34,805 bases of DNA from Dehalococcoidia bacterium (GCA_022451865.1 JAKUNM010000011.1:1-34805), one strand, 5' to 3'; positions 21,371 through 25,225 are shown, counted from the first letter of the stretch. Program-made: numbers and translations. The notes: generated by a model from the letters alone, not told the origin.

Positions 21371-21427
21371 TCGATGTTTTCACCGTTAATAAAGACTTAG
21401 TATACGTGGGTCTGGTAAGTTTTGCTT

Positions 21428-22138
21428 ATGATTAGAACTTATCGTACATCTACTGGAAGTATCTCACAAAGCACAATTGATTTTCTTAGTGAACAATTGG
21501 ATCAAAAGTCTATTGGTGAAGATGTAAGACTTAGCATCGCATTTGGGTCTATGAATCGCGGTGGTTCTTCTCTCTTTTTTCTATTTTTAGATACCAATGA
21601 ATTTGGATTAGCTGATACTCCTGTAATTACCGCTACATATGGTCCCAAAGTTTCTCTCGAGAGTAATTGGGTAGAAGTATTAAATTACAATAGGAGAATT
21701 GTATTTCCTTTGGAGCGTATTGTTGAAATTCCAGAAGTCATTGAAATTGAAATTTTTCGTAGAGTTGCTTCACTAGTCCCTCAAGGTGGAAAACTGATAG
21801 TTGAATATGATTCACTCGATCACCGATTAACTGCAGAAGCATTAAGTTTAGGTGTTCCTCCAGCGGCAACTCCTTTAGGTGGAATAATGATAGCAACTGG
21901 CTGTGGGGTACAGTTTATTAATCATGATCTTTCTAGTGGTGGGCGCTCAGGTCGGAGAAAACTAATTGGATTACGTGGAAAGAATGATGAAAATGATCGG
22001 AGATTGTCACTTGCTATGATTGATGAATTAGAAAATTTCTTAACTTGGTCAAAGGAATTAGATTGGCTCATTCAATCCAAAACCCGACCTATTGCAATAG
22101 CAACCATTACTATGCTTAAAGAAAAATTCAATTTATAA
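21428..22138 (+). CDS. Conserved-looking protein of unknown function at the head of the gluconeogenic cluster
   Basis: I do not recognise this protein. The frame opens with TTG 21422, but ATG 21428 is the likelier start (236 residues, MIRTYRTSTGSISQ). It looks soluble and alpha/beta: IGEDVRLSIAFGSMNRGGSS, a central strand-turn-strand part (RIVFPLERIVEIPEVIEIEIF), VPQGGKLIVEYDSLDHRLTA and LGGIMIATGCGVQFINH. VPQGGKLIVEYD followed by a Gly-rich strand recalls a nucleotide- or cofactor-binding fold, possibly a DUF1122-like protein, but this is a guess. It ends with a helical region (LSLAMIDELENFLTWSKELD). It lies 45 bases before fbp and reads the same way, so it probably shares that transcript. 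Confidence 0.6.
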   Translation: MIRTYRTSTGSISQSTIDFLSEQLDQKSIGEDVRLSIAFGSMNRGGSSLFFLFLDTNEFGLADTPVITATYGPKVSLESNWVEVLNYNRRIVFPLERIVEIPEVIEIEIFRRVASLVPQGGKLIVEYDSLDHRLTAEALSLGVPPAATPLGGIMIATGCGVQFINHDLSSGGRSGRRKLIGLRGKNDENDRRLSLAMIDELENFLTWSKELDWLIQSKTRPIAIATITMLKEKFNL

Positions 22139-22183: not shown

Positions 22184-23149
22184 ATGTCGCTAACAATCAA
22201 GGGAATAAATTCACCAGTACAAGGAGTTGATGACTCTTCTTTAGGAGCAGTTCTAGAAGCAATAGTTAGTGCTGCTAAATTGATTTCGGGCAATGTCCAA
22301 AGTGGCATGCTTATTGAACGTCCAGATCCAGATGGTGTAAGAAATATTCATGGTGAATTAGTGCATACATTGGATACTTTAGGGACAAATACTTTCGTTA
22401 ATGTATTTAAGGATAGTCAAGTTGTAGCAGGTTTAGTATGTGAGGAATTAGATGTGGAAACATTTTTTGATGTGAAAGATATTTCGGAATCTTATTTTTG
22501 TGTTCTAGATCCTATAGATGGAACATCAAATGCAGATATTGCAATAACTATTGGCTCAATTTTTGGTATTTTTAAAGGGACTAATGGTAATAGTGTACTT
22601 GATGCCAGACAATTCTTACGTCCAGCAAAAGATTTTGTTGCTGCTGGATATGTTTTATACGGCTCAAGCACTTTGTTAATATTAGCAACGCCGCTTCGAG
22701 TGCAAGAATTTACACTTGATACCGATAAGATGGAATTTGTCTGTACACGTAGCGATATTAGTATCCCTGCAGAATGTCCTTATTATAGTGTGAATCAAGG
22801 ATATGACGATTTATGGGATGACAAGATAAAAACTGTAGTTAACTCAATCAAGAGAGGGCGTTCATTGCGATATGTTGGATCATTAGTTTCAGATTTTCAC
22901 CGTGATCTTATCAGGGGTGGTGTTTATTTATATCCGGGTGATACCAATAACCCTGAAGGTAAAATTCGCTTACTTTATGAGGCTGCTGTAATGAGTTATA
23001 TCGCCCATTATGCAGGTGGCGAAGCAACTAATGGGTATACATCTATATTTAATTTGCAACCAAAATCAATCCATCAACGAACACCAATTTTTATAGGTAA
23101 TTCGAACGTAATTGAACAAATTGAGTCAATATTAAGAGATACTACTTAA
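22184..23149 (+). CDS. fbp: Fructose-1,6-bisphosphatase, class I
   Basis: Hydrolyses fructose-1,6-bisphosphate to fructose-6-phosphate, the gluconeogenic step. 321 residues. Metal ligands are in place: CEELD (Glu87/Glu88) and DPIDGTSN (109-116), followed by IGSIFGIFKG. The substrate site is seen in SLRYVGSLVSDFHRDLIRGG, YPGD, GKIRLLYEAAVMSYIAHYAGG and the C-terminal QPKSIHQRTPIFIG, which match class I enzymes closely. AGGA lies about 10 bases before ATG. Directly followed (20 bases) by the class I aldolase gene, so the two consecutive gluconeogenic steps are encoded side by side. Confidence 0.95.
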   Translation: MSLTIKGINSPVQGVDDSSLGAVLEAIVSAAKLISGNVQSGMLIERPDPDGVRNIHGELVHTLDTLGTNTFVNVFKDSQVVAGLVCEELDVETFFDVKDISESYFCVLDPIDGTSNADIAITIGSIFGIFKGTNGNSVLDARQFLRPAKDFVAAGYVLYGSSTLLILATPLRVQEFTLDTDKMEFVCTRSDISIPAECPYYSVNQGYDDLWDDKIKTVVNSIKRGRSLRYVGSLVSDFHRDLIRGGVYLYPGDTNNPEGKIRLLYEAAVMSYIAHYAGGEATNGYTSIFNLQPKSIHQRTPIFIGNSNVIEQIESILRDTT

Positions 23150-23169
23150 ATTAAGAAGAGGAGATTTCG

Positions 23170-24084
23170 ATGGGAGAAGCAAATCAACTAAGAGAACCAT
23201 GTGTACTTGATAGGATGCACCTCGCATCAGGACAATATTCAAGATTACATAGAATGATGTATGAATATGGGACAGCGAATGGTACCTTGTTGCTTCTTCC
23301 CTATGATCACGGTATTGAGCATGGTCCTATAGATTTTTTGGATTACCTCCAAGGTGCTGATCCTGAATATCTTTTCCGCCTTGCAGTTCAAGGTAAGTTC
23401 TCTGGGATTGCAACGCATTTAGGTTTAGCAAGAAGATATTTTTCTGAAGTAGCAGGACAAGTTCCACTTGTTGTGAAATTGAATGGTAAAACAAATATTC
23501 CTCCTGACGATCACGCTATTTCCACGATGTCTGGTGATGTTGAATCTGCTGTTCGTTTGGGTGCTGATGCGGTTGGATACACCTTGTATGTTGGTTCTCC
23601 AGAGCAACATCAAGACTTCGAACAATTGCGTGAAGTCAGACGTGAATCCGAATTATTAGGGATTCCCTTAATTGTTTGGGCTTATCCTAGAGGTAAATAT
23701 ATAGAATCTAAAGGTGGTAGAGATGGTTTATATGCAGTCGATTATGCTGCGAGACTGGCTCTGGAATTAGGAGCTGATGTAATTAAGTTGAACATACCTA
23801 AAAATCATAATCTAGATACTGATGCTCCTGCGCAGTATAAAGAATTAGAAGGTGAACGGTTTGAGATGACCAAACGTGTAATTGTTTCTGCGCAAAGGGC
23901 TTTGGTAGTTTTTACTGGAGGGAGTTTCCATTCAGATGAAGATTTTCTTGCTGACTTGGATATGGTAATGCGTGCAGGAGCTTCAGGTATAATCGCTGGG
24001 CGTAATATGTTTCAGCGTACGGAAGAAAATGCGATAGCAATTACCAAACGTGTGCATGAGCTTTTAGGAGAATATTCGCAATGA
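23170..24084 (+). CDS. Class I fructose-bisphosphate aldolase, archaeal/DhnA type
   Basis: Forms or cleaves fructose-1,6-bisphosphate. 304 residues, TIM barrel. LLPYDHGIEHGP (around 43-53) and VVKLNGKTN (101-109), GADAVGYTLYVGS (131-143), IVWAYPRGKY (168-177) and GADVIKLNIPKN (201-212) are DhnA-family strands; Lys206 is the likely Schiff-base lysine. FTGGSFHSDEDFL and GASGIIAGRNMFQR form the C-terminal phosphate-binding loops. GAGGAG lies 7-8 bases before the ATG. The C-terminal coding sequence carries an AGGAG that would serve an ATG overlapping its stop codon (24081), but that ATG opens only a 17-codon frame. Other DhnA relatives make other products; the neighbouring FBPase supports the FBP aldolase role. 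Confidence 0.92.
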   Translation: MGEANQLREPCVLDRMHLASGQYSRLHRMMYEYGTANGTLLLLPYDHGIEHGPIDFLDYLQGADPEYLFRLAVQGKFSGIATHLGLARRYFSEVAGQVPLVVKLNGKTNIPPDDHAISTMSGDVESAVRLGADAVGYTLYVGSPEQHQDFEQLREVRRESELLGIPLIVWAYPRGKYIESKGGRDGLYAVDYAARLALELGADVIKLNIPKNHNLDTDAPAQYKELEGERFEMTKRVIVSAQRALVVFTGGSFHSDEDFLADLDMVMRAGASGIIAGRNMFQRTEENAIAITKRVHELLGEYSQ

Positions 24085-24124
24085 TTGTTAGTTATTTTGT
24101 AATCTTTTTCTTTGGTCTAGTCCA

Positions 24125-25225
24125 ATCCGATTAACTTTAACTTCTATCGCATCCCCTGTTGGTGGGCTTGTAAGTCCTGGAGTATCACACTCTGAGATTG
24201 CTAATGTTGCTGAATCGACAGGAGCTAGAGTTCTTCGCGATAGTCCAGTCATTGATCTCAAAACTTATCTTGTGGGTGGCTCCATCTATATCCTTATTAC
24301 CCATACAGCAGGCGAAAAAAATAATCAGATATTTTCAATTGCTAGAGACATTATTAAAGATTGTCAAAATGTTGCAAAGAAATTGAAACTGTATATTTAT
24401 CATGAAAATGCGGAGATCAATTTGTCAGAGGATGATTGGAATGGTTTTGGATCTTCTATAGCGGAAATAACTTTTGAAGAACGTATAAAAGAGTCAGTGA
24501 TTTGTTTCATTGGCTCTGGCATGGGTCTAGGTGGATTTAATCTTCCATTATTTAAGACTTTTGCTGATCCATTTAATACTTCAGGCTTGATTTTTTCCGA
24601 TATGTTGCATGAAGGAACTGCATTTGAGGTGCAGGATACAATTGAACATCGTAAGGCTGTTTTTTCCAATCCTAATGAATCGTATGACTTGCTTGCTTAC
24701 ATTGGTATGACAGATAGATTTGTCGTGCATCGTGTAATTACTCGTGTAGATGGTAAAATTGTTGCAGTAGCTTCGACAGATCGGTTGAGTGATGTCAGTG
24801 GATTAAATTCGGGGAATGATACCCCAGTAGCAGTTGTTCGTTGTGAAGGTTCATTACCCACAATCGGCGAAGTTACTGAACCATATTCGGTACCTGCTTT
24901 GGTTGTAGGTTCAAATCGTGGGTCACATTTAGGGCCATGGATGCCCGTTAGTGTTACTGATTTATCGATTGGTAGATTCGATGGTCCGCCTAAAATTGCT
25001 GCTCTTGGCTTTAATCTTGCCGATGGTTATCTGGGTTTGGAAAAGGATGTTTTTGCTGATAACTCATTTAATCGTGCTAGGGAGCAAGCAAACTTGCTGA
25101 CAGATATTTTGCGTAAGCAAGGTCCATTTGAACCTTACAAAGTAGGTCTTGATTCCTCTGAAATTCAACAATTGCCTGGTTTTGTATCTCAATCAGAATC
25201 TCGTTGGGTTCCGATCGGAGAATAA
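24125..25225 (+). CDS. Degenerate FBP aldolase/phosphatase (FBPA/P, FBPase class V)-like protein
   Basis: Homologous over its length to the bifunctional FBP aldolase/phosphatase of archaea and deep bacteria: IAEITFEER, NLPLFKTFADPFNT, YDLLAYIGMTDRFVVHRV, VASTDRL, DTPVAVVRCEG, GSHLGPWMPVS, RFDGPPKIAALGF and KQGPFEPYKVG. The active site looks lost. Family KADIGS reads ASPVGG, the metal-binding GDD reads VGG, ADKTEPGA reads GSGMGLGG, and the Lys before RFDGPP is gone (family residues recalled from memory). No ATG, GTG or TTG precedes GTG 24272 in this frame, although homology starts near 24125. Only an ATC stands there, without a ribosome site. It may be a pseudoenzyme with a non-standard start, a 5' frameshift, or an early pseudogene; the intact downstream frame argues against simple decay. 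One base before rdgB. Confidence 0.72.
   Translation: MRLTLTSIASPVGGLVSPGVSHSEIANVAESTGARVLRDSPVIDLKTYLVGGSIYILITHTAGEKNNQIFSIARDIIKDCQNVAKKLKLYIYHENAEINLSEDDWNGFGSSIAEITFEERIKESVICFIGSGMGLGGFNLPLFKTFADPFNTSGLIFSDMLHEGTAFEVQDTIEHRKAVFSNPNESYDLLAYIGMTDRFVVHRVITRVDGKIVAVASTDRLSDVSGLNSGNDTPVAVVRCEGSLPTIGEVTEPYSVPALVVGSNRGSHLGPWMPVSVTDLSIGRFDGPPKIAALGFNLADGYLGLEKDVFADNSFNRAREQANLLTDILRKQGPFEPYKVGLDSSEIQQLPGFVSQSESRWVPIGE

Follow-up and report, generated by a model that had tools for sequence, protein, structure and literature searches.

Loss of catalytic residues under purifying selection in an FBPA/P-family gene adjoining class I fructose-1,6-bisphosphatase and DhnA-type aldolase genes in Dehalococcoidia

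According to a published proposal, the bifunctional FBPA/P was the original enzyme of gluconeogenesis (PMC3267732 and references therein). The family (PF01950, NCBIfam NF041126) is represented by ST0318, by the Tneu protein and by the PDB entries 1umg, 3r1m and 3t2b, and a literature search found no FBPA/P pseudoenzyme. Here, we analysed a stretch of 34,805 nucleotides (the window), a 34.8-kb contig from a small, AT-rich Dehalococcoidia (Chloroflexota) genome, which encodes a full-length homologue of these proteins. The window gene shares its Ham1 and MoaA neighbourhood with the intact FBPA/P genes of the class, and its product keeps the fold-determining residues. It differs from FBPA/P in lacking nearly all core catalytic residues, in scoring under the NCBIfam equivalog cut-off and in co-existing with a separate fructose-1,6-bisphosphatase (FBPase) and aldolase. 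As in pseudoenzymes in general, selective catalytic loss is combined with purifying selection; in contrast to them, the loss recurs here across lineages of one family, after the arrival of the replacing enzymes.

The FBPase, aldolase and FBPA/P-family genes form a tandem array on the + strand, as an earlier note on this DNA had described, and each of them has a Pfam match. The first gene (22184..23149, +) encodes an apparently active class I FBPase with both the N- and the C-domain of the class (PF00316/PF18913, FBPase and FBPase_C, E 5e-37 and 7e-38) and its metal-binding DPIDGTSN motif; matches to FBPases in the PDB reach E 9e-61 and a ...LLYE... stretch is also present. The second gene (23170..24084, +) encodes a seemingly active DhnA-type class I FBP aldolase (PF01791, DeoC/DhnA, E 4e-39). 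Its top PDB match is the T. tenax FBP aldolase 1ojx, and the Lys of ADVIKLNIP aligns with Schiff-base Lys177 of that enzyme, which places it in the DhnA type; the YDHGIEHGP motif is retained as well. The third gene (24125..25225, +; 366 codons from the conserved frame start) encodes the eroded FBPA/P-family protein, and a DUF1122 gene (21422..22138, +; PF06557), recognised also by synteny, precedes the trio. The trio is common to all three species of the genus that were compared. Named relatives of the FBPA/P-like gene come from marine metagenome-assembled genomes (Chloroflexi SAT228 and SP4356, Dehalococcoidia SI072_bin195 and UBA6627), and all genomes in the comparison are metagenome-assembled.

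The FBPA/P-like protein matches PF01950 (FBPase_3) over residues 2-361 of 366 and profile positions 1-360 of 361, with 318 bits and E 9e-95; the curated cut-off is passed, and no other gene in the window's own genome matches this profile. With the equivalog NF041126 it reaches 312.5 bits against a cut-off of 520, and the third gene is thus a strongly diverged full-length member, without an internal stop. Homology alone would mis-annotate such eroded genes as functional FBPA/P. We mapped the residues by alignment with ST0318 (3r1m), Tneu FBPA/P (3t2b) and about 40 homologues of the class. Asp12, His19, Asp53, Asp54, Gln95/Asp96, Asp132, Asp233 and Asp234 are what we take to be the Mg2+ ligands of FBPA/P, while Tyr229 and Lys232 presumably form its aldolase machinery, the Asp, His and Gln residues being the metal sites. 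These roles agree with the data, as the alignments show Y229F in the PDB variant chain 3t2g relative to 3t2b. The 13 metal, Schiff-base and acid-base positions of this core are invariant in 41 intact sequences, and 12 of them are replaced in the window protein (D12P, H19P, D53G, D54S, Q95E, D96N, D132S, K133G, Y229N, K232N, D234T and Y348I). Asp233 is the only Mg2+ ligand kept, both Schiff-base Lys232 and acid-base Tyr229 have become Asn, and R266, D287 and RFDGPP are retained.

The former Lys232 codon lies at 24815..24817 (+), where GKDDP has turned into GNDTP in all three genus members. The earlier note was right that the Schiff-base Lys is changed, but it had placed this residue next to RFDGPP. 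Its view that a conserved core had suffered motif-specific loss is borne out by the contrast between the 12 of 13 core positions and the 21 of 84 other family-invariant positions that are altered (Fisher p = 5e-6). A structure model (AlphaFold, five sequences; mean pLDDT 45) was too poor to use. With the Mg2+ ligands, Lys232 and Tyr229 gone, neither canonical reaction should be possible by the known mechanism, so the protein has presumably lost both activities; the persistence of D233, R266 and D287 makes some ligand chemistry possible.

The gene is nevertheless under strong purifying selection. In a codon model with three species of the genus, omega was 0.053 over the 366 codons (2dlnL 483 versus omega = 1), with a minimum of 0.029 in residues 201-366; the neighbouring genes gave 0.058 (FBPase), 0.025 (aldolase), 0.070 (Ham1), 0.076 (MoaA), 0.108 (FolC) and 0.110 (DUF1122). 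Since pairwise dS within the genus is 0.9-1.9, ample time for decay had been available; stops and frameshifts are absent from the eroded genes of the three genus members, of the two sister genera and of genus g15. The g15 pair, which eroded separately (G016 and G030, 95% identical), has an omega of 0.045, against 0.03-0.04 for intact FBPA/P pairs in genus g8, and within-genus identity is 82-89% for the eroded protein versus 86-90% for the intact one in g8. Thus, the dead protein is conserved almost as the living enzyme is. A plain pseudogene, which should show stops, frameshifts and a dN/dS near 1, is ruled out by the dN/dS, whereas catalytic residues lost from a protein retained by selection are what defines a pseudoenzyme. 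The suggestion that a pseudoenzyme with retained function stands beside both replacing enzymes is therefore supported, and we regard it as highly probable that the gene encodes an FBPA/P with altered catalysis that selection maintains.

Within the window's family, erosion of FBPA/P goes along with the acquisition of a class I FBPase. The family sample comprised 44 genomes including the window's genus (genomes carry G numbers and genera g numbers). In the 13 with a class I FBPase, FBPA/P is eroded in nine (G000, G001, G002, G017, G025, G016, G030, G026 and G061), undetected in two (G032 and G067) and intact in two (G014 and G062). In the other 31 it is intact in 28, undetected in two and eroded in one, G034, where a further FBPA/P copy, 505 aa long, has its catalytic residues in place. 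The comparison of eroded and intact copies by FBPase presence gives Fisher p = 1.9e-6, although the genomes are not independent and the number of events therefore matters more than this value. On the neighbouring-gene tree (all trees were made with FastTree) the eroded genomes fall in {g1, g16, g17}, g15, G026, G061 and G034, a spread which implies that at least four separate erosion events coincide with the class I FBPase. The FBPA/P tree groups g15 with g16, g17 and g1, probably by long-branch attraction, because the neighbouring-gene tree places it with g8 and g12 at a support of 1.0. The AT-rich g5, with intact FBPA/P, lies inside {g1, g16, g17} on the neighbouring-gene tree and with g7 on the FBPA/P tree, and this conflict probably reflects long branches too. 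The stem branch is strongly accelerated.

The extent of core loss forms a graded series, from the intact enzyme together with the pair in G014 and G062 through 4 of 13 residues lost in G061, 5 in G026, 9 in G016 and 12 in the window's genus to all 13 in G017, and the gene is undetected in the two genomes named above. Lys232 is lost in every eroded copy of this sample. The family thus preserves a displacement series in which the order of dismantling of a bifunctional enzyme becomes directly testable. Its FBPases are of two types, only about 30% alike, which indicates separate acquisitions. Type one lies directly upstream of FBPA/P in g1, g16 and g17; type two, which has a different DhnA aldolase as its partner, lies next to FBPA/P on the downstream side in G014 and G061 and on a separate contig in the other genomes. 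For g15 and G026, the contig of the eroded gene does not carry the replacing FBPase and aldolase, so that partnership with precisely these proteins is not a general feature. Genera g16 and g17 are without DhnA and class II aldolases; the class I aldolase that they encode has about 297 aa (G017/G025). An acquired aldolase as the trigger of erosion was rejected, as most intact genomes have a class II aldolase and g14 combines DhnA with intact FBPA/P. Every eroded copy that was found shares its genome with a substitute phosphatase or with a paralogue that looks intact, including an independent erosion outside the family (L084 in G162, from another family of the class; D132N, K232L and D233N), where the genome encodes GlpX.

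We also surveyed an even sample of the class (294 genomes, 268 of them outside the family; counted by hand from two lists). Outside the family FBPA/P was found in 154 of the 268 genomes, and in none of the 28 that have a class I FBPase, at the cut-off used; these 28 are clumped in about seven families. Keeping a dead FBPA/P thus seems peculiar to the window's family, whereas elsewhere the displaced gene vanishes. In a synteny scan, DUF1122 lay upstream of FBPA/P on the same strand throughout the family, with the exception of genus g9, and it precedes every eroded copy there; in other families it was absent upstream of FBPA/P, except in G284. DUF1122 is thus a candidate partner of FBPA/P, a linkage that shared synteny alone could explain.

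On these grounds we propose that the third gene is the ancestral FBPA/P of its Dehalococcoidia lineage, displaced in situ. As the first step, a class I FBPase would have been acquired directly upstream of FBPA/P, an arrangement that persists in the sister genera g16 and g17, whose class I aldolase is a different one; the window's genus now has a DhnA aldolase between FBPase and FBPA/P. Once the newcomers had taken over the aldolase and phosphatase work, FBPA/P would have lost its Mg2+ ligands, Lys232 and Tyr229 while selection kept the protein, most likely in a non-catalytic role at the fructose-bisphosphate node, where it would be a partner of a structural or regulatory kind. Such a partner could be a subunit that binds sugar phosphates or is oligomeric, expressed together with FBPase and aldolase. 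A partner or sensor at this node, or one acting with DUF1122, fits best because the residues that took over the active-site positions vary from one eroded genus to another, whereas g1, g16 and g17 all retain R266 and RFDGPP, and a loss that evolved several times makes a second job for the protein probable. Displacement in situ, with retention as a pseudoenzyme for such a partner role, is on balance the reading that we favour. For the non-catalytic role taken by itself the case appears evenly poised, and our confidence in any particular named partner is low. The question of a second FBPA/P function that survives the loss of catalysis can now be tested directly.

The main rival holds that the emptied site was refashioned to serve a different reaction or substrate, so that selection maintains a new enzyme on the old fold. 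The former active-site positions are indeed fixed in the genus (P12, P19, G53, S54, S132, N229 and N232), omega is very low, most of all in residues 201-366, and R266, D233 and RFDGPP remain. However, K232 is replaced by N, H, R or S and D12 by P, A, I or G in different eroded genera, many ligands have become Gly, Pro or Ala, and with only about ten scattered substitutions common to g1, g16 and g17 no common new active site is visible. We therefore judge a new activity unlikely, though worth serious consideration.

To a similar, rather small degree we credit an ancestral non-catalytic moonlighting role tied to the family's DUF1122 neighbourhood and independent of the FBPase/aldolase pair, by which the protein would be indispensable wherever its catalysis is redundant. 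In its favour, several lineages, all of this family, have retained the protein in parallel, the family-specific DUF1122 gene lies upstream of each eroded copy there, and the replacing pair is located elsewhere in g15 and G026. Yet common ancestry may be all that the shared synteny reflects, no function is known for DUF1122, and the 1.5 kb upstream of the eroded G162 gene contain no DUF1122.

That the gene is a functionless relic, a pseudogene in progress left unbroken by a recent displacement, is very improbable. The weak, odd start (described below), the accelerated stem branch, the undetected FBPA/P of G032 and G067 and its absence from the 28 FBPase-bearing genomes outside the family are in its favour, but for the window's genus it is refuted by the dN/dS at the divergence given above, and the reading frames are unbroken in the window's genus, the two sister genera and g15. 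The earlier idea of a relic caught during displacement thus survives as an account of origin, as intermediates exist, and fails in this genus as one of plain decay; decay may still apply to G061 and G026, single cases with less erosion that have no close eroded relative. A still-active FBPA/P with its metal and Lys residues at shifted positions is just as improbable, since, despite the retained D233, R266 and D287 and an Asp or Glu near some lost positions (E95), the alignment with ST0318 and Tneu is nearly gap-free, a Lys is absent around 232 (GLNSGNDTPV), as is an Asp pair around 53-54, and a single core residue of 13 is left.

The start of the FBPA/P-like gene is unusual. Between the upstream stop and the conserved N-terminus its frame contains no ATG, GTG, TTG or CTG in any of the three species, and translation probably begins at AUU/AUC, namely at an ATC (24125..24127, +; ATT in both relatives, in the regions L032 6113-6159 and L033 6367-6413) homologous to Met1 of intact FBPA/P. 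This position holds GTG and TTG in the sister genera and ATG in most intact copies. Codons 1-25 are constrained (omega 0.027, 2dlnL 32) and the preceding 11 codons are not. PMC5472188 describes a non-canonical, IF3-repressed GTC start of Streptomyces sigR; the gene studied here would likewise start outside ATG/GTG/TTG in a bacterium, with the difference that its start is ATC/ATT and that the organism is uncultured. A Shine-Dalgarno-like AGGAG in the aldolase 3' end (24066..24070, +), conserved in the three species, lies 10 nt before the ATG at 24081, although it may merely reflect aldolase codons. This ATG opens a 17-codon frame (24081..24134, +), open in all three species, which overlaps the aldolase stop (ATGA) and ends with TAA just inside the FBPA/P-like frame. 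The frame is without codon-position bias (11/16/12) and so is probably not a conserved peptide; it is a possible reinitiation leader, by which the AUU/AUC start is perhaps coupled. The internal GTG at 24272, called as an ORF start, was rejected as the sole start, as codons 1-25 are constrained and the relatives do not share this GTG; a -1 frameshift out of the leader is not favoured (no codon bias, no shared slippery heptamer and no supported RNA fold, at a consensus of -1.2 kcal/mol), and fusion with the aldolase is excluded by the frames and the intervening stops. Only tentatively do we suggest that in this marine Chloroflexota family the ancestral bifunctional enzyme may repeatedly have become a pseudoenzyme after its replacements arrived, often beside it, through a hitherto unsuspected second, non-catalytic function, with the AUU/AUC start as a built-in expression brake in the window's genus.

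Several other FBPA/P loci were noted. A tandem second paralogue of 505-515 aa occurs at L037 3314-4858 (G012) and at L038 (G034, minus strand); its metal ligands and Lys232 are intact, its RFDGPP is changed, and it shares about 32% identity with the first copy and is conserved across both species (omega 0.04). At L072/L109 (G027:C23:31951-34006) an intact FBPA/P gene adjoins those of a GlpX-type FBPase and a class I (PF00274) aldolase, apparently another in-situ acquisition, before erosion. At L046 (G052:C16:48083-49121) FBPA/P is split over two frames with its residues otherwise intact, through a frameshift or an assembly error. Finally, a divergent FBPA/P subgroup (L040-L042 and L086-L098, about 400-470 bits) is present in several families, and it keeps all metal and Schiff-base residues while carrying T134C and a changed RFDGPP motif.
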